Shown here: piece by piece, positions 52,865-61,889 of the stretch
Numbering within the stretch: position 1 is the stretch's first letter
Layout of the letters: each line of letters starts with the position of its first letter
DNA from: Streptomyces olivochromogenes
GTDB lineage: Bacteria > Actinomycetota > Actinomycetes > Streptomycetales > Streptomycetaceae
Direction: 5' to 3'
DNA: 64,000 bases
NCBI RefSeq assembly: GCF_001514115.1
Contig: NZ_KQ948453.1
Span: 106,659 to 170,658 of the forward strand
The notes under the pieces: model-generated
What the model was told of the DNA's origin: nothing
Databases searched by the model: none
The model's input: only the letters and a program-made list of their open reading frames with translations
Position numbers and translations under genes: made by a program

Positions 52865-54340
52865 CTACGCCGAGTCGGCGTTGGTCGGCGGGTACGTCGG
52901 GCGGGCCGGCATCGGCGCGACGGTTACGGCCAGGGTGGGCAGCGGCGGCAGCTTCGCCGTACGCACCCAGGCCCCGAACAGGTCGTCCAGCGGCTCGGCC
53001 GAGTACCGGGCGGCGTGCGCGGTGAACACCGCCGTGGTGACCGCGCCGCCCCGGTGCAGGGCGGCCCAGCCGCGCAGCATACGGAAGAACGCGTCGTCGC
53101 CCATCGCGCAGCGCAGCGCGTGCAGGGTGAGTCCGCCGCGCTCGTAGAGCCGGTCGTCGAACATCAGCTTGCGGCCCGGGTCGGACAGCACCAGGTCCTT
53201 CGGCTGCCCGGACAGCTTGCGGTGCGCGAGAGCGGCCAACTGCTGGGCCGTACGGCCGCCCGACCGCTCCGACCACAGCCACTCGGCGTACTTCGCGAAG
53301 CCCTCGTTCAGCCAGATGTGCCGCCAGTCCGCGATGGACACGCTGTTGCCGAACCACTGGTGTGCCAGCTCGTGCGCGACCAGCCGCTCCGAACCCCGCG
53401 CCCCGTCCACGTGGTTGGCGCCGAACAGCGACAACCCCTGCGCCTCGACGGGGACATCGAGCTCCTCCTCGGTCACCACGACGGCGTACTCGCCGAACGG
53501 ATACGGCCCGAAGATCTGCTCGAACAGCTCCATCATCGCGGGCTGCCGCGCGAAGTCCCGGGAGAACGCGGCGAGCAGGTGCGCGGGCAGATGCCCCGTC
53601 TGCGGTACGCCGCCGAGCCCGGGGTCGCCGAGCAGCACCGTCTGGTACTTCCCGATCGACAGCCCGACCAGATAGCTGGAGGTCGGCGCCGCCTGCTCGT
53701 ACACCCAGGTCGTCGTCGACGCCTTCGTCGTACGGGTGAGCAGCCGCCCGCCCGCCACCACCGAGTACGCCGACGGCGTCGTGATGGAGATCTGGTACGA
53801 GGCCTTGTCGGCGGGGCGGTCGTTGCACGGGTACCAGGAGGGCGCGCCGATCGGCTGGCTCGCCACCAGCGCCCCGTCCTCCAGCTCCTCCCAGCCGAGT
53901 TCGCCCCAGGGGCTGGGGACCGGCTTGGGGTTGCCCGACCAGTGCACCTCCACGGTGAACGCGGCACCGGCCCGTATCGGCTTCGGCGGGCGGATGCGCA
54001 ACCGGCCGCCCCGGTGCGTGTAGTGCGGTGCCTTGCCGTCGACCCGGACCCGGCCGATCCGGAAGTCGGCCAGGTTCAGCTGGAACTCGGCGAGTGGAGC
54101 CCGGCCCGCTATGGCGTTGAGCCGCGCGGTGCCGGACAGCCGGTTGGGGCCGGGGCGGTAGTCCAGCGCGAGCTCATACCGGTGCACCCGGTAACGGGGA
54201 TCACCGTTGGCCGGGAAGTACGGGTCCGAACCCACTGCCTGCTGAACGCTCACGCTTGCGTCTGCTCCCTGCGCTGTGCTCGTACGACGTGCCGGTGCAC
54301 CGTCCCCGGACGCCGTACGGGCCGCGCCTAGGAACGCCAT
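52865..54340 (-). CDS. M1-family zinc aminopeptidase coupled to a Pls-like synthetase
   Basis: 491 aa. Zinc and catalytic residues are His323, Glu324, His327 and Glu346 (HELAHQWFG, x18, NEGFAKY). The usual GxMEN exopeptidase motif is replaced by PVEAQGLSLFG, as in other actinobacterial M1 enzymes of this group. No signal peptide is obvious at this start. The ATG lies 13 bases inside the end of the Pls-like NRPS gene, so translation is probably coupled. Known epsilon-polylysine producers carry zinc aminopeptidases that trim the polymer, so a trimming, resistance or recycling role is inferred. Confidence 0.88.
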   Translation of the reverse strand: MAFLGAARTASGDGAPARRTSTAQGADASVSVQQAVGSDPYFPANGDPRYRVHRYELALDYRPGPNRLSGTARLNAIAGRAPLAEFQLNLADFRIGRVRVDGKAPHYTHRGGRLRIRPPKPIRAGAAFTVEVHWSGNPKPVPSPWGELGWEELEDGALVASQPIGAPSWYPCNDRPADKASYQISITTPSAYSVVAGGRLLTRTTKASTTTWVYEQAAPTSSYLVGLSIGKYQTVLLGDPGLGGVPQTGHLPAHLLAAFSRDFARQPAMMELFEQIFGPYPFGEYAVVVTEEELDVPVEAQGLSLFGANHVDGARGSERLVAHELAHQWFGNSVSIADWRHIWLNEGFAKYAEWLWSERSGGRTAQQLAALAHRKLSGQPKDLVLSDPGRKLMFDDRLYERGGLTLHALRCAMGDDAFFRMLRGWAALHRGGAVTTAVFTAHAARYSAEPLDDLFGAWVRTAKLPPLPTLAVTVAPMPARPTYPPTNADSA

Positions 54341-57300
54341 GCCTCGATCGGGTTGCCCAGCCAGCGGGTGTCGTCGGGGACGGATTCCGCCGCCATGACG
54401 AGCGAGGCGGGTCCCAGCGTGCTGCGCGCCCCGACTGTGCTGCCGGGAAGGACGATTCCGCCCGGGCCCAGAGTGGCGCCCTCACGGAGGACAACAGTAT
54501 CCGTCCGCAAGATCCGGTCGTGGAAGAGGTGGGTCTGCAGGACACAGCCCCGGTTGACCGTGGTCGCGTCCTCCAGGGTCACCAGGTCCGTCTCGGGTAG
54601 CCAGTAACTCTCGATCCATGCCCCCTTGCCGATATGGGCGCCGAGGCCGCGCAGCCACGCCGTCATCAGCGGCGTACCGGGCACGGATCCGGCCAGCCAC
54701 GGCACGGCGACGACCTCGACGAAGGTGTCCGCCAGCTCGTTGCGCCACACGAAACCGCTCCACAGCGGGTGCTCGCCCGCCCGGTGCCGGCCCACCAGCA
54801 GCCACTTCGCCACGATGGACGTCAGGCAGGCCAGCACGCCGACGCCCAGGAACACGACTCCGGCCAGCAGCGGCGCCCAGACGCCCAGCGCGCTCAGCGC
54901 GGCGACGGTCAGGACCGCCAGCGCCGCCGAGCAGAACACCGGCACGATCCGGCACAGCTCCACGAGGGCCCGCGCCCACAGCAGCCGCGCGGGCGGGTCG
55001 TAGGTACGGCTCTGATCGCCGTCCTGCGTCGAGCGCGGCAGCTTCACCGGCGGCAGACCCAGGTACGAGCTGCCCTTCTTCGCCTTCTTCGGGGTCGCCG
55101 ACAGCACCCCGACCAGCCCGCCGTCCGGCACGCTGCGGCCCGGCGCGGTCATCCCGGAGTTGCCCAGGAAGGCCCGGCGGCCGATCTCGGCACGCCCGAT
55201 CCGCATCCAGCCGCCGCCCAGCTCGTACGGCGCGGTCAGGGTGTCGTCGGCGAGGAAGGCGCCCTCGCCCACGGTGGTGAGACTCGGCAGCGCGAGGACG
55301 GTGGAGACCTCGGCACCCCGGCCGATCCTCATACCGAGCAGCCGCAGCCACACCGGCGTGATCAGCCCGGCGTACAGCGGGAACAGCGTGTCGCGCGAGC
55401 GGTCCATCAACTGCGTGACGGTCCAGGCCTGCCAGCCGATCCGGCTGTGCGTCGGGTACGTGCCTTCACGCAGGCCCAGGCTGAGCAGACGCACGCCGAC
55501 CAGGAGCAGCAGCGCGTACGCGAGCCCGAAGGCGAGCGTGGCCGGGACCAGCGCGAGCGCCGCGCCGCGCAGGGCCGCACCGAGCCCGGCGTCCGCGCGC
55601 ACGAACGGATGAGCCACCAGGAGCGCGGCCACGGCGGAAAGAACAGGCAGCGCGGTCAGCGCGAAACCGGTCGCGCCGTACATCGCCCGCCAGTACGTAC
55701 CCCGGCGCGGACGCTCCTTGGGCCAGGCACGCTTCGCCTTGCCGAGCTTGCCGGCGGGCGCTCCGGCCCAGCGCTGCCCGGTGGGAATCTGCCCGGCGAC
55801 CGCCGAGCCCGGCGCCACCTCGGCCCGCTTGCCGACGCGCGCGCCCGGGAAGAGGATGCCGCGCGTCCCGACCACCGCACCGGCGCCGACCTTGACCTGC
55901 CCGATCTCCAGCCGGTCACCGTCCAGCCAGTACCCCGACAGGTCCACCTCGGACTCGACGGCGGCACCCCGGCCCAGCTTGAGCATGCCGGTCACCGGCG
56001 GCAGCGAGTGCAGATCGACGTCCTTGCCGACCTTGGCGCCCAGGGCACGCGCGTACCGCTCCAGCCAGGACCCGGTCAGCGAGGCCGCGCCACTGAACTC
56101 GGCCAGCCGTTCGGCGGTCCACAGCCGCAGATGCACACTTCCGCCCCGGGGGTAGCGTCCGGGCTTCACCCGGCGCAGCAGCAGCCGCGCCCCGCCCGCC
56201 GCGATCGCGAGCCGCCCCGGCGGGCTGTGGAGCACGACCGCCCCGGCGCCGACGAGCCACCACGAGGCGCTCGGCGCCCAGGGGTACGGACCGAACCAGT
56301 GCAGTACGTTCCCGAGCGCGGCCAGCGCCACGGTCCAGCGCAGCCCCATCAGCGTGAACAGGGGTATCAGCAGGAACAGCTGGGTCACCTTGGCGCGCAG
56401 TGGCACCGGGGCGATCACCCGGTCGCCGCCGTCGTCCTGCGCGGACTTCTCCAGGCGCCGGGCCAGCTTGCGCAGAACGGGCTGCTGGTAGATGTCGAGC
56501 ACGGCGGCGCTGGGGTAGCGGGTGCGCAGCCGGGTGGTGAGCTGGGCGGCGGCGAGGCTGCCACCGCCGATCGCGAAGAAGTCGTCGGACCCGCTGCCGA
56601 CCGGGATGCCGAGGACCTCGCTCCACTGCTCGGCGAGCCAGGCCTCGGTGCCGTAGAGCTGTTCCTTCGTACCGCCGGTCTCCAGGCCCTCCAGGGGCCA
56701 GGGCAGCGCGCCCCGGTCGACCTTGCCCGAGGTGCGGGTCGGCAGGTCCGCGACCGGGGCGAGCAGCGGGACGAGGGCCGCGGGCAGTTCGGCGCGCAGC
56801 TTCTCGACGGCGGCGGCCTGGTCCCAGCCCTCCTGGGTGACGACATAGCCGACGAGCAGCTGGTTGCCGCTGCGGGCGGTCCGGACGGCGGCGGCGGCCC
56901 CCGCCACACCGGGGAGCGCCTGGAGCGCCGTGTCGACCTCGCCGAGCTCGATGCGGCGCCCGCCGAGCTTGATCTGCTCGTCGGCCCGCCCGAGGAAGAT
57001 CAGCCCCTCCGGCTCGGCCTTGACGAGGTCACCACTGCGGTACGCCCGCGCCCAGCCGAGCGACTGAAGCGGCGCGTACTTCTCCGCGTCCTTCTCCGCG
57101 TCGAGATACCGGGCGAGACCGACCCCGCCGATCACCAGCTGGCCGGTGTCGCCCATGGCCACGGGCTCGCCGGCCTCGTCGACCACGGCCAGCTCCCAGC
57201 CGTTCAGCGGCAGCCCGATCCGGATCGGCTCCTCGCCGGTCATGAGGGAGGCACAGGCGACGACGGTCGCCTCGGTGGGCCCGTAGGTGTTCCACACCTC

Positions 57301-58203
57301 GCGGCCCTCGGTCACCAGCCGCTGGACCAGCTCGGGCGGGCAGGCCTCACCGCCGAAGATCAGCAGCCGTACGTCGGCCAGGGCCTCCGGCTCCCAGAGC
57401 GCGGCGAGCGTCGGCACGGTCGAGACGACGCTGATCTCCTGCTCGACCAGCCAGGGCCCCAGGTCGGCGCCGCTGCGCACCTGGGAGCGCGGCACGGGGA
57501 CCAGGCAGGCGCCGTAGCGCCAGGCCAGCCACATCTCCTCGCAGGAGGCGTCGAAGGCGACGGACAGGCCCGCCATGACCCGGTCACCGGGCCCGATCGG
57601 GTCCTCGGTGAGGAACAGCTCCGCCTCGGCGTCGACGAACGCGGCGGCGCTGCGGTGACTGACGGCCACACCCTTGGGCTTGCCCGTGGACCCGGAGGTG
57701 AAGATGATCCAGGCGTCGTGCTCGACACGGGGGCGCGCGGCGGGCACCTCGGAGGTGCCGTTGACGGTCAGCCGGTGCCCGGCCCCGATGACGGCCCGCA
57801 CCTCCGCCTCGCCGAAGACCAGCTCGGCCCGCTCGTCGGGGTCCTCGGCGTCCACCGGCACATAGGCAGCGCCCGCGGCCAGTACGGCGAGGATGGCGAC
57901 GTACAGCTCGTTGGTGCCGGAGGGGACACGGACGCCGACCCGGTCGCCGAGGCCCACTCCGGCGTCGCTCAGCCGCCGCCGCTGGGCCTCGACCTCGACG
58001 GCCAGGGCGCGGTAGGTGAGGACCCGGTGGCCGTCGTCGAGGGCGGGCTCGTCGGGGTGGGCCCGGACGGTGGCGTCGAGGATGTCGACCAGCGTGCGCG
58101 GCGAGGCGGCGACGGAGGCGGAGAAGCGCGCCGGGTCGCCGAACTCCGCGCGCACCTCCTCGTCGAACAGCGCGAGTGCGGGGCCTTGCTCGAGGGCTGC
58201 CAT
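54328..58203 (-). CDS. pls: Pls/PosA-family poly-amino-acid synthetase (membrane NRPS)
   Basis: 1,291 aa, near the 1,319 aa of epsilon-poly-L-lysine synthetase (Pls). An A domain fills residues about 35-520: FTSGSTGKPKG, FDASCEEMW, NTYGPTEATV, YRSGDLVK, and Lys494 in TRTSGKVDR. The T domain has Ser549 in IGGGSLAA. Then about six membrane helices alternate with tandem hexapeptide-repeat domains (for example LGPGGIVLPGSTVGARSTLG near the C-terminus). No normal C or TE domain is present. My pocket reading is D-A-E-S-I-G-T-V-V-K, suggesting a cationic residue such as lysine. GTGAGGACCCG precedes the ATG. Product unproven. Confidence 0.9.
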   Translation of the reverse strand: MAALEQGPALALFDEEVRAEFGDPARFSASVAASPRTLVDILDATVRAHPDEPALDDGHRVLTYRALAVEVEAQRRRLSDAGVGLGDRVGVRVPSGTNELYVAILAVLAAGAAYVPVDAEDPDERAELVFGEAEVRAVIGAGHRLTVNGTSEVPAARPRVEHDAWIIFTSGSTGKPKGVAVSHRSAAAFVDAEAELFLTEDPIGPGDRVMAGLSVAFDASCEEMWLAWRYGACLVPVPRSQVRSGADLGPWLVEQEISVVSTVPTLAALWEPEALADVRLLIFGGEACPPELVQRLVTEGREVWNTYGPTEATVVACASLMTGEEPIRIGLPLNGWELAVVDEAGEPVAMGDTGQLVIGGVGLARYLDAEKDAEKYAPLQSLGWARAYRSGDLVKAEPEGLIFLGRADEQIKLGGRRIELGEVDTALQALPGVAGAAAAVRTARSGNQLLVGYVVTQEGWDQAAAVEKLRAELPAALVPLLAPVADLPTRTSGKVDRGALPWPLEGLETGGTKEQLYGTEAWLAEQWSEVLGIPVGSGSDDFFAIGGGSLAAAQLTTRLRTRYPSAAVLDIYQQPVLRKLARRLEKSAQDDGGDRVIAPVPLRAKVTQLFLLIPLFTLMGLRWTVALAALGNVLHWFGPYPWAPSASWWLVGAGAVVLHSPPGRLAIAAGGARLLLRRVKPGRYPRGGSVHLRLWTAERLAEFSGAASLTGSWLERYARALGAKVGKDVDLHSLPPVTGMLKLGRGAAVESEVDLSGYWLDGDRLEIGQVKVGAGAVVGTRGILFPGARVGKRAEVAPGSAVAGQIPTGQRWAGAPAGKLGKAKRAWPKERPRRGTYWRAMYGATGFALTALPVLSAVAALLVAHPFVRADAGLGAALRGAALALVPATLAFGLAYALLLLVGVRLLSLGLREGTYPTHSRIGWQAWTVTQLMDRSRDTLFPLYAGLITPVWLRLLGMRIGRGAEVSTVLALPSLTTVGEGAFLADDTLTAPYELGGGWMRIGRAEIGRRAFLGNSGMTAPGRSVPDGGLVGVLSATPKKAKKGSSYLGLPPVKLPRSTQDGDQSRTYDPPARLLWARALVELCRIVPVFCSAALAVLTVAALSALGVWAPLLAGVVFLGVGVLACLTSIVAKWLLVGRHRAGEHPLWSGFVWRNELADTFVEVVAVPWLAGSVPGTPLMTAWLRGLGAHIGKGAWIESYWLPETDLVTLEDATTVNRGCVLQTHLFHDRILRTDTVVLREGATLGPGGIVLPGSTVGARSTLGPASLVMAAESVPDDTRWLGNPIEAWRS

Positions 58204-58533
58204 CGGGTCCTCACGTGTTGTTCCCGGAGCGTCCGGGGAGCTGGTGGGCCCGCAGGTATGCCTGGGGATATTCCGGTCCAGCTCCAAACAAGCCTTGAAT
58301 TTTAGTACGACGCTAGTCGCGTACCTGGTCATCAGCCATGCGGGGACTCCGTACGAGGGCTCCGGAACCACTGATTCCGGTGTGGTGACGGGGCTCTGAC
58401 ATGGGGGTATGTCATCCTGACGAGATCTGCCCCACATCTGTCCGTAACGCGGCGAACACGATGAGTTGAGGCCTGCGCTGCGCACAACGAGTGAGGGCCG
58501 CGACCTGATGGTCGCGGCCCTCACTCCTCTGTG
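58204..58533. other. promoter region of the pls-like gene and tRNA terminator
   Basis: About 330 bases. GTACGACGCT/AGTCGCGTAC at 58305-58324 is an imperfect palindrome (7 of 10 pairs) in an AT-richer patch 100 bases upstream of the synthetase ATG and may be an operator. No CDS is visible. The far end holds the tRNA terminator listed separately. Confidence 0.45.
58491..58524 (-). terminator. terminator downstream of tRNA-Leu
   Basis: GTGAGGGCCGCGACC and its exact reverse complement around a TGAT loop: 15-base arms. It lies 10 bases beyond the 3' end of the tRNA gene, which is on the minus strand. Confidence 0.85.
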
Positions 58534-58618
58534 TGTCCGAGGGGGGACTTGAACCCCCACGCCCGATAAAGGGCACTAGCACCTCAAGCTAGCGCGTCTG
58601 CCATTCCGCCACCCGGAC
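58534..58618 (-). tRNA. tRNA-Leu (anticodon GAG)
   Basis: The minus strand folds as a class II tRNA of 85 bases. Acceptor GTCCGGG pairs with CTCGGAC (one G-U) and the discriminator is A. The anticodon stem CTAGC/GCTAG encloses the loop TTGAGGT with anticodon GAG, reading CUC and CUU. The extra arm TGCCCTTTATCGGGCG is long, as expected for Leu, and the T arm contains GGTTCAAGTCC. CCA is not encoded. Confidence 0.95.
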
Positions 58619-58806
58619 AAGGTGTCTGTCGCGCGGGGTTTCCCTCGCGGCGACAGAGGAAACATTACCAGGCTTTCGAGGGCCCCCGGTCACACCCCGT
58701 CGCCGCGTGAACGGCGTGTGACGGGCCGGGTCCGGCCTTGGGGCGAGGAGGGGGTGGGGGAGAGGATGAGGGGGGACCACCAGCAGTGACAGTGGGAGGA
58801 AGCAGC

Positions 58807-60132
58807 GTGAGCGAGTCGAACACGGCCAGGAGCGTCTCTGGCGAGGACGAGGTCGTGGACCTCTGTCGCGAGCTGATCCAGATCGACACCAGCAACTACG
58901 GGGACCACTCCGGACCGGGTGAGCGCAAGGCCGCGGAGTACGTGGCCGAGAAGCTCGCCGAGGTCGGGCTCGAGCCGCAGATCTTCGAGTCGCACAAGGG
59001 GCGCGCGTCGACCGTGGCCCGTATCGAGGGCGAGGACCGCTCGCGCCCCGCGCTGCTCATCCACGGCCACACCGACGTCGTACCGGCCAACGCGGCGGAC
59101 TGGACCCATCACCCCTTCTCCGGCGAGATCGCGGACGGGATGGTGTGGGGCCGCGGCGCGGTCGACATGAAGGACATGGACGCCATGACGCTGGCGGTCG
59201 TCCGGGACCGGCTGCGCAGCGGGCGCAAGCCGCCGCGTGACATCGTCCTCGCGTTCCTCGCCGACGAGGAGGCCGGCGGCACGTGGGGCGCGCGGCACCT
59301 CGTCGACAAGCACCCCGACCTCTTCGAGGGCGTGACCGAGGCGATCGGCGAGGTCGGCGGGTTCTCCTTCACGGTCAACGAGAAGCTGCGGCTGTACCTC
59401 GTCGAGACCGCCCAGAAGGGCATGCACTGGATGAAGCTCACCGTGGACGGCACCGCCGGGCACGGTTCGATGATCCACAAGGACAACGCGATCACCGAGC
59501 TGTCCGAGGCCGTCGGACGGCTCGGGCGGCACAAGTTCCCGGTCCGGGTGACGAAGACGCTGCGGCACTTCCTCGACGAGCTCGGCGACGCGCTGGGCAC
59601 CGAGCTCGACCCGGAGAACATGGACGAGACGCTCGCCAAGCTCGGCGGCATCGCCAAGCTCATCGGCGCCTCCCTGCAGAACACCGCCAACCCGACCCAG
59701 CTCGGTGCCGGATACAAGGTCAACGTGATTCCGGGGCAGGCGACCGCGCACGTCGACGGGCGTTACCTGCCGGGGTACGAGGAGGAGTTCCTCACCGACC
59801 TGGACCGGATTCTGGGACCGAGGGTCAAGCGTGAGGACGTGCACGCGGACAAGGCGCTGGAGACCACCTTCGACGGGGCGCTGGTCGACGCCATGCAGAC
59901 CGCGCTGTCCGCCGAGGACCCGATCGCGCGAGCCGTGCCCTACATGCTCTCGGCCGGCACCGACGCCAAGTCCTTCGCCGACCTCGGCATCCGCTGCTTC
60001 GGCTTCGCCCCGCTCAAGCTGCCGCCGGAGCTGGACTTCGCGGGCATGTTCCACGGGGTCGACGAGCGGGTGCCGGTGGATGCCCTGAAGTTCGGCGTCC
60101 GTGTGCTCGACCGCTTCATCGAGGCGTCATGA
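58807..60132 (+). CDS. M20-family metallopeptidase/deacylase
   Basis: 441 aa dizinc hydrolase of the ArgE/DapE/carboxypeptidase G2 superfamily. Metal-site blocks are LLIHGHTDVVP, GRGAVDMKDM, and ADEEAGG with the catalytic Glu pair; the dimerisation domain is inserted near residues 195-310, and GTDAKSFADLGIRCFGF closes the site. The GTG at 58807 has GGAGGAAGCAGC before it. It removes an amino or acyl group from a peptide-like substrate in the cytoplasm; substrate not identifiable. Confidence 0.92.
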   Translation: MSESNTARSVSGEDEVVDLCRELIQIDTSNYGDHSGPGERKAAEYVAEKLAEVGLEPQIFESHKGRASTVARIEGEDRSRPALLIHGHTDVVPANAADWTHHPFSGEIADGMVWGRGAVDMKDMDAMTLAVVRDRLRSGRKPPRDIVLAFLADEEAGGTWGARHLVDKHPDLFEGVTEAIGEVGGFSFTVNEKLRLYLVETAQKGMHWMKLTVDGTAGHGSMIHKDNAITELSEAVGRLGRHKFPVRVTKTLRHFLDELGDALGTELDPENMDETLAKLGGIAKLIGASLQNTANPTQLGAGYKVNVIPGQATAHVDGRYLPGYEEEFLTDLDRILGPRVKREDVHADKALETTFDGALVDAMQTALSAEDPIARAVPYMLSAGTDAKSFADLGIRCFGFAPLKLPPELDFAGMFHGVDERVPVDALKFGVRVLDRFIEAS

Positions 60133-60259: not shown

Positions 60260-60277
60260 TGCCAACAAGGAGGAATA

Positions 60278-60511
60278 ATGATCAAGAAGGTCGTCGCTGC
60301 TGCGGCTGCCACTGGTGGTCTGGTTCTCGCGGGTGCGGGCCTGGCCGTCGCCGACTCGGGTGCCCAGGGTGCCGCTGTGCACTCCCCGGGTGTCATCTCC
60401 GGCAACGTCATCCAGGTGCCCGTTCACGTCCCGGTGAACGTTTGCGGCAACACGGTCTCCGTGATCGGGCTGCTGAACCCCACCTTCGGCAACACCTGCA
60501 TCAACAACTGA
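60278..60511 (+). CDS. chpH: short chaplin ChpH
   Basis: 77 aa secreted amyloid surface protein that coats aerial hyphae and spores. A signal peptide ends after Ala25 (LAVA/DSG). The single chaplin domain runs from about residue 36 to 76 with the SPGVISGN start, the [12 protein letters not shown] block and two conserved Cys (56 and 74) that form a disulfide. AAGGAGGAATA gives a strong ribosome site. Adjacent to a long sorted chaplin, the S. coelicolor chpH-chpC arrangement. Likely expressed under BldN during development; no promoter was confirmed. Confidence 0.96.
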   Translation: MIKKVVAAAAATGGLVLAGAGLAVADSGAQGAAVHSPGVISGNVIQVPVHVPVNVCGNTVSVIGLLNPTFGNTCINN

Positions 60512-60582: not shown

Positions 60583-60662
60583 CGGCTTTCGGCGCACGCA
60601 CAGGACGGATGCGTGCGCGTTCCGGAGGGTCCAAGCCAAGGACTAAGGCAGGGAATTCAGCT

Positions 60663-61751
60663 ATGCGACAGGTCACCCGCAAGGGCCTGATGACCGTGGC
60701 GGCCGCGACCGGCGTACTCGCCGCGACCGGAGGCTACGCACACGCCGACTCGGGTGCGAGCGGCGCCAGTTCGGACTCGCCCGGCGTGCTGTCGGGCAAC
60801 ACGGTGCAGGCGCCGGTGCACGTGCCGGTCAACGTCTGCGGAAACACCGTGAACGTCGTCGGGTTGCTCAACCCGGCGATGGGCAACAAGTGCGTCAACC
60901 ACGGCGGCGGTGGGTCGTCCGCCGGGGGGCACGGGGGAGGTTATGGAGGCGGCTACGGGGGTGGCGGCCATGATGGTGGCGGCTACGGGGGTGGCGGCTA
61001 CGGCAGTGGCGGCCATGACGGTGGTGGCTACGGCGGTGGCGGCCATGACGGTGGCGGCTACGGCGGTGGTGGCTACGGCGGTGGCGGTTCGCACTGGGGC
61101 GGCTCCCACGCCGGTGGGCACGCGAGTGGCTCGCCGGGCGTCGGCTCCGGCAACCACGTCCAGGTGCCGATCGACGTGCCGGTCAACGTCTGCGGCAACA
61201 GCGTGAACGTCGTCGGGTTGCTCAACCCGGCGATGGGCAACGACTGCGCGAACGGACACGGCGGCCACACCCACTATCCGCCCGGCGGCGGTCACCCCGG
61301 TCACCCCGGTCAGCCCGGTCACCCGGGTCAGCCCGGTCACCCGGGTCAGCCCGGTCACCCCGGTCACCCGGGTCACCCCGGTCACCCCGGTCACCCGGGA
61401 CACCCCGGTTACCCGGGGCAGCCTGGGAACCCCGGTCAGCCCGGGAACCCGGGTACGCCCGGGAACCCGGGTACGCCCGGGAACCCGGGTACGCCCGGGA
61501 ACCCGGGTACGCCCGGGAACCCGGGTACGCCCGGGAACCCGGGTACGCCCGGGCACCCCGGAACCCCGGGCACGCCGCCCACCTCGTACCCCCACCACCC
61601 GGGGACGCAGAACGTCTCCCAGCCGCAGAGCGGCGCGGCGCAGCTCGCCCACACCGGCAGTGACCTGCCGATCGGCGCGGTGATCCCGGCGGCCGCGGGC
61701 GCGCTGCTGGCGGGCGCCGTGCTCTACCGCCGGGCGCGCTCAGGCGCGTAG
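60663..61751 (+). CDS. chpC: long sortase-anchored chaplin with collagen-like repeats
   Basis: 362 aa wall-anchored chaplin. A signal peptide ends near Ala28 (YAHA/DSG). The first chaplin domain has Cys59 and Cys77. A Gly-rich repeat of the type YGGGGHDGG fills about residues 81-150. A second chaplin domain follows with VPVNVCGN and NPAMGNDC. Residues 210-305 are 32 Gly-X-Pro triplets (X = His, Gln, Asn, Thr, Tyr), a collagen-like tract. LAHTG at 328-332 is a class E sortase signal, followed by a membrane helix and RRARSG tail. The collagen-like stretch is unusual and much longer than in the S. coelicolor long chaplins as I recall them. Confidence 0.93.
61290..61578 (+). repeat. 9- and 18-base tandem repeats in the long chaplin
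   Basis: A 9-base register (GGTCACCCC, GGTCAGCCC, GGTCACCCG and variants) runs from 61290. GGGAACCCGGGTACGCCC is repeated exactly six times at 61443-61550. The units encode Gly-X-Pro triplets. Copy number may vary between strains. Confidence 0.92.
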
Positions 61752-61804
61752 TCGGCGGGACAGAGAAGTGTCCGGGCCTGGAACGGGGGCCGGGGCAGGT
61801 GTGA

Positions 61805-61873
61805 TCGCTTCGCCACAGGCATCCCCTGTGGCGAAGCGACCGGAGCGGGCCCGCACGGGCGGGGCCCGCTCCG
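61805..61873. terminator. two consecutive hairpins between convergent genes
   Basis: TCGCTTCGCCACAGG with its exact complement at 61825-61839 (15-base arms), then CGGAGCGGGCCC (61841-61852) with GGGCCCGCTCCG (61862-61873) ending in TTT. They separate the chaplin gene from the convergent DUF5703 gene. Confidence 0.85.
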
Positions 61874-61889
61874 TTTCAGCCGCTTTCGC

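Follow-up and report, generated by a model that had tools for sequence, protein, structure and literature searches.

In Streptomyces coelicolor, SrtE1 and SrtE2 are reported to anchor the long chaplin ChpC at an LAXTG motif (PMC5148588), and the smallest working set of chaplins seems to consist of ChpC, ChpE and ChpH (PMC3079736). Long chaplins are believed to help the short ones assemble at the surface (PMC13293333), and 'large disordered region(s)' have been noted in AlphaFold models of the ChpA-C proteins (PMC13251363). For an anchored lipase it is described that a shorter wall-spanning sequence leads to lower activity (PMC8546643). As far as the texts retrieved from the chaplin literature extend, we found no description of a collagen-like spacer in long chaplins, and text in which 'chaplin', 'Streptomyces' and 'collagen-like' occur together concerned other matters. 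Here we analyzed a long chaplin of Streptomyces olivochromogenes in which the second chaplin domain and the sorting signal are separated by a very regular Gly-X-Pro tract.

The long chaplin and its surroundings

The locus was analyzed within a stretch of 64,000 nt, which is called the window throughout. The features of the chaplin pair and its direct neighbor are as follows:

58783..60132, + strand: M20 family peptidase preceding the chaplin pair, a neighbor outside the system (Pfam)
60269..60511, + strand: short chaplin of 80 aa in a ChpH-like position immediately before the long one, with a single PF03777 domain (Pfam)
60663..61751, + strand: long chaplin of the ChpC type, 362 aa (ORF translation, Pfam, 33-protein alignment)
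60729..60899, + strand: chaplin domain 1 (PF03777) with Cys59 and Cys77 (Pfam, alignment)
60948..61087, + strand: Gly-rich HDGG/YGGGG repeat within the linker between the chaplin domains, a 15/45-base tandem array (Tandem Repeats Finder)
61086..61253, + strand: chaplin domain 2 (PF03777) with Cys177 and Cys195 (profile match, alignment)
61290..61577, + strand: 32 uninterrupted Gly-X-Pro triplets, residues 210-305, an 18/54-base tandem array (Tandem Repeats Finder, run count)
61644..61658, + strand: LAHTG sorting motif, residues 328-332 (translation, alignment)
61695..61742, + strand: hydrophobic helix of the sorting signal, residues 345-360 (low-confidence model)

Judged from its sequence, the product of 60663-61751 is a ChpC-type long chaplin, a predicted surface protein with a sortase signal, because an upstream short chaplin, an LAXTG-type signal and the Cys pairs occur together. 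The ChpA-C profile (PF03777) matches in two stretches with 183.8 bits summed, which is over the cut-off. Both Cys pairs (Cys59/Cys77 and Cys177/Cys195) as well as L328, A329, T331 and G332 of the sorting motif are invariant in an alignment of 33 proteins, which were taken from 36 listed ones and hand-picked with a leaning to long tracts. The first ATG in the ORF list lies at 60609, but among the aligned relatives it is the 60663 start that is conserved. By eye the N-terminus resembles a signal peptide, which is conserved in the 33 proteins as well, and basic residues are seen at the end of the hydrophobic helix. The LAHTG signal points to sortase anchoring of the protein; in the genome of 11.7 Mb we counted 13 chaplin-domain matches and 10 sortase matches (PF04203), the latter without regard to sortase class. 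In all 144 usable Streptomyces loci (see below) a short chaplin lies just upstream of the two-domain chaplin, and the chpH-chpC pair of S. coelicolor presumably has the same gene order.

Chaplin domain 2 and the sorting signal are linked by the spacer, whose core is the Gly-X-Pro tract. The X positions of its 32 triplets are occupied by His (11), Thr (8), Asn (7), Gln (5) and Tyr (1), Pro is found at Y in every triplet and never at X, and Lys, Arg, Asp and Glu are absent from the tract. These results agree with the initial annotation, which had described two chaplin domains with paired Cys, the Gly-rich repeat, an uninterrupted Gly-X-Pro tract with X mostly His, Thr, Asn or Gln, and LAHTG followed by a membrane helix and a basic tail. 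Its view of the protein as a long chaplin with a sortase signal and a very regular stalk-like spacer was likewise borne out, whereas two further suggestions, that such a spacer is unusual and that collagen is its natural reading, were not supported by the comparisons described below. An AlphaFold2 model of the long chaplin was set aside as too poor to use (mean pLDDT 47.5); the tract was the most confident part of this model, with block means up to 80.

Two observations concern the surroundings of the gene. A pair of very strong hairpins stands back to back at 61805-61873, a short distance past the stop codon of chpC (minimum free energy of -61.8 kcal/mol, z -5.5, for 61790-61880), and perhaps acts as a terminator or as an RNA-stabilising structure; a scan for a terminator-like T run at this site found none. 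On the minus strand, 54328-58560 holds a large ORF that by eye combines an adenylation/carrier protein with a multi-pass membrane and repeat part and looks poly-amino-acid synthetase-like.

Occurrence and variation of the Gly-X-Pro tract

We searched 199 Streptomyces genomes, of which 198 gave a match, and obtained the best locus of the best-scoring 148. The other 51 genomes, including the one without a match, scored below these, and the sample leans to near relatives. Four loci were dropped, two without a second chaplin domain by profile (L124 and L239) and two ending before the sorting motif (L041 and L183), leaving 144 complete long chaplins with the window protein included. Within this best-scoring set, at least 5 consecutive Gly-X-Pro triplets are present in 60 of the 144 proteins, at least 10 in 39, at least 20 in 15 (the window among them) and at least 30 in 4. 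The longest run has 39 triplets, and the window with its 32 ranks third, after 39 and 35. Spacer length ranges from 39 to 245 residues with a median of 90, the window spacer (132 residues) ranking 10th.

A second set was built from 80 named loci (79 of the 80 contigs are titled Streptomyces) by removing 7 without a second domain and 4 without a usable sorting motif. Runs of at least 10 and at least 5 triplets were found in 15 and 27 of the remaining 69, a set that probably overlaps in species with the 144. For other genera of the family 40 of 51 genomes were used, and after exclusion of 5 unusable loci, runs of at least 5 triplets were observed in 5 and of at least 10 in 3 of 35 loci, some of which may not be orthologues. 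Taken together, a regular Gly-X-Pro spacer is common among the Streptomyces relatives, but it is not standard in most ChpC orthologues. These counts do not support the view of the initial annotation that the spacer is unusual for long chaplins. The protein belongs to a known family, and its spacer is a region of a known kind, though of unusual regularity. One relative (L018) carries a long block of Gly-Gly-His repeats ahead of the Gly-X-Pro tract within the same spacer (Gly run of 46).

The same annotation had considered that the repeats might be assembly artefacts. Tracts of 30 and 39 triplets are present in two single-contig genomes (G015, locus L165; G151, locus L223), which makes an artefact unlikely as the general cause, and this explanation was rejected; the 32 triplets of the window are the count given by its assembly. 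The copy number differs even between close relatives: the nearest named relative, from S. diastatochromogenes (L044), shows 92% protein identity and has 22 triplets compared to 32 in the window, and the nearest relative in the tree (L015) has 10. A quick tree was built from the conserved parts with no mixture model, and 60 of its 141 inner branches are open. Along this tree the presence of at least 10 triplets (39 positive rows) changes 19 times, as against 31-38 changes when the labels were shuffled (100 times). The tract is shared by kin, yet it has been gained or lost often, and an invention in a single lineage was rejected on the basis of the 19 changes. Run length and spacer length are correlated (r = 0.63), and the repeat number probably drifts by slippage of the 18-base unit. 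Two paralogues in the same genome carry other spacers, one of them Pro-Pro-Thr-Thr (L004) and the other short and Pro-containing (L009).

Proline rhythm, glycine register and the nature of the spacer

For each of the 144 spacers we compared the longest run with Pro at every third residue to the longest run with Gly at every third residue. The Pro run was longer in 116 spacers, equal in 15 and shorter in 13, and the median lengths were 12 and 3, respectively. At periods of 2, 4 and 5 the Pro runs were short (medians of 1, 2 and 2). When each spacer was shuffled 200 times with its composition kept, the observed Pro run was reached by fewer than 5% of the shuffles in 115 of the 144 spacers, and the observed Gly run in 61. 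A Gly run below 5 was seen in 79 spacers, and in 51 of these the Pro run nevertheless passed this threshold. Residue pairs at lag 3 occur 2.54 times as often as expected for Pro and 1.72 times for Gly. The Pro fraction of the spacer is also steadier than the Gly fraction (CV of 0.21 versus 0.54), and Pro makes up at least 20% of the spacer in 128 of the 144 relatives. Where the Pro run reaches at least 8 (101 spacers), Gly follows Pro at 73% of 1614 positions, the remainder being Glu, Ser, His, Ala, Asp, Val, Thr or another residue. Of the 39 tracts with at least 10 triplets, 21 have a Pro rhythm that extends two or more steps beyond the Gly-X-Pro run, and 18 have one that hardly outlasts it. 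The named set behaved similarly, with the Pro run being the longer one in 60 of 69 proteins. What the Streptomyces spacers keep most steadily is a three-residue spacing of Pro rather than of Gly.

In the other genera the Pro run exceeds the Gly run in 28 of 35 loci but is short (median of 3), and it is significant in only 9 of the 35, from which we conclude that the rhythm is a trend of the genus and not a rule of the family. By eye most of these spacers are Pro-rich without rhythm, and two (L302 and L309) are charged instead, being rich in Asp/Arg/His or Asp/Glu. Two Streptomyces spacers (L223 of G151 and L201 of G176) maintain the Pro rhythm over 70 and 30 steps, but contain Gly-X-Pro runs of only 39 and 16 triplets; the breaks in these runs include Cys-containing steps, and Cys inside the spacer was also seen in several loci of other genera.

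We consider it probable, at roughly 70%, that the tract is an extended polyproline-II spacer that lifts the chaplin domains out of the wall and varies by repeat slippage. The protein would be secreted and anchored by a sortase with its two amyloid-prone chaplin domains displayed outside, and the Gly-X-Pro tract would serve as the wall-side spacer with Pro at every third residue as its working feature. As a Pro period of 3 matches the three residues per turn of the polyproline-II helix, the chain would be expected to stay extended and to resist compaction. At a helix rise of about 0.3 nm per residue, 96 residues would reach roughly 28-30 nm, a length that may suffice for the chaplin domains to cross the wall and arrive where the short chaplins assemble. 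Gly would then be the most frequent filler between the Pro residues, not an obligatory one. This fits the data better than a triple helix, because a triple helix needs Gly at every third residue and Pro is the steadier of the two. In the window itself the Gly run and the Pro run are equal (32 and 32), so that the case for the spacer rests on the relatives.

A genuine triple helix, in which three ChpC chains would be wound over 32 triplets into one rigid rod carrying six chaplin domains, a rod that could nucleate the amyloid layer, appears unlikely to us. Gly does occupy every third residue across all 32 triplets, the Pfam collagen model (PF01391) scores 59.4 bits on the protein at a cut-off of 27.2, and it matches 23 of the 33 members of the alignment, which was hand-chosen with a lean to long tracts. 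In phmmer searches collagen chains were matched as well, the best being PDB 8zxl/9ius ('spindle fibril/axial fibril'); these matches are of low complexity and were given little weight, although the repeat of this fibril, with GAP, GSQ and GLQ triplets, has Pro at Y in some triplets and is a possible counter-example to the argument that follows. Stability in the absence of hydroxyproline is possible for bacterial collagens (PMC8968730, PMC7824840). However, they are described as having Pro most commonly at X and Thr most commonly at Y (PMC8968730), and the stability of the Scl2 collagen is ascribed to Pro at X together with charge-based interactions (PMC7824840). The window tract offers neither of these two sources of stability and does not share this residue make-up. 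Throughout the 144 spacers, the Gly-every-third runs of at least 5 triplets comprise 1042 triplets, of which 950 have Pro at Y and a single one has it at X. Most relatives do not retain the Gly register: the Pro rhythm outlasts it in 116 of the 144, and 39 have a run of at least 10 Gly-X-Pro triplets. In addition, Pfam found no further domain in the long chaplin that might trimerise. The collagen label, which the initial annotation had offered as the natural reading, goes back to a motif match, and the comparison with relatives weakens it.

Since the Gly and Pro runs of the window are equal, a triple helix may still be considered for the longest tracts. The 15 perfect tracts of at least 20 triplets might have crossed from a single-chain polyproline-II form to a triple helix with Pro only at Y and none at X, in contrast to the make-up known from descriptions of bacterial collagens, bundling three long chaplins with their six chaplin domains into an amyloid nucleus; we regard such a transition as doubtful.

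PF01391 gave 11 matches in all in the genome, and beyond the long chaplin the ORFs at four loci were read. One of them (L249, 1291-1983, minus strand) encodes a small protein, by eye membrane-anchored, with canonical Gly-Pro-X repeats, in which Pro is found mainly at X, unlike in the chaplin spacer. By eye, the match at L251 is the Pro-rich linker of a kinase-like protein and those at L246 and L247 are compositional. Antisense ORFs over the tract and antisense PF01391 matches were attributed to other reading frames of the repeat.

It is quite improbable that the tract is only a passive product of slippage, where any hydrophilic filler of sufficient length would serve and the Gly-X-Pro order would reflect no more than the expansion of GC-rich 9- and 18-base units. 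The 18- and 54-base tandem arrays, the different copy number in a close relative and the correlation of run length with spacer length all agree with slippage, as do the quite different spacers of other genera and of the paralogues, two of them charged rather than Pro-rich. Against this, the residues stay constant despite synonymous variety: the 32 Gly are encoded by four kinds of codon and the 32 Pro by three, which suggests a constraint on the residues besides slippage. Furthermore, the Pro rhythm recurs with different fillers, which passive expansion alone does not explain. The proposal of the initial annotation that His-rich triplets bind metal, for which His at 11 of 32 X positions in the window speaks, is very improbable, and was rejected as a general function since His is not a conserved X residue: in runs of at least 5 triplets (920 positions) X is Asn in 28%, His in 24%, Thr in 18% and Glu in 12%, and His is the commonest X in just 19 of the 60 tract-bearing proteins, which otherwise favor Asn, Thr, Glu, Gln, Asp or Lys.

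Significance and relation to known wall-anchored proteins

Our analysis corrects the tempting label of a chaplin-collagen fusion: Pfam calls many such spacers collagen, yet it is the Pro spacing that is steadier in Streptomyces. If the polyproline-II spacer is the right explanation, long chaplins would be a further case of anchored proteins in Gram-positive bacteria that have Pro-rich stalks, and the natural variation of the spacer over the 144 relatives would offer a ready series for relating the reach of the amyloid domains to the aerial coat. If instead the longest tracts form triple helices, they would represent a collagen with Pro only at Y.

By description, the window protein resembles ChpA-C of S. 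coelicolor, in particular ChpC, with the same two chaplin domains and their Cys pairs, an LAXTG-type signal and a neighboring short chaplin (PMC3079736, PMC13251363). Going by these descriptions, it is set apart by the 32-triplet Gly-X-Pro spacer and the long Gly-rich linker. SesJ of Staphylococcus epidermidis is likened to it by description as well, being an anchored protein with a collagen-like sequence according to a figure legend (PMC7403478). With the sortase-anchored collagen-like proteins Scl1 and Scl2 it shares Gly-X-Y repeats in a wall-anchored protein and a match to the Pfam collagen model; the SclA match is below threshold (17.3 bits at a cut-off of 400). It differs from them by Pro at Y in every triplet and at X in none, by the lack of charges and of any further Pfam domain, and its relatives mostly do not keep the Gly register. 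The proline/glycine-rich stalk (PGR) of S. epidermidis Aap belongs to a different protein, for which we claim no homology, and is likened to the chaplin spacer by position and reported behavior only. In both cases a Pro/Gly-rich region lies between the functional domains and the sorting signal, here from chaplin domain 2 to LAHTG, and the Aap repeat, too, has Pro at every third residue.
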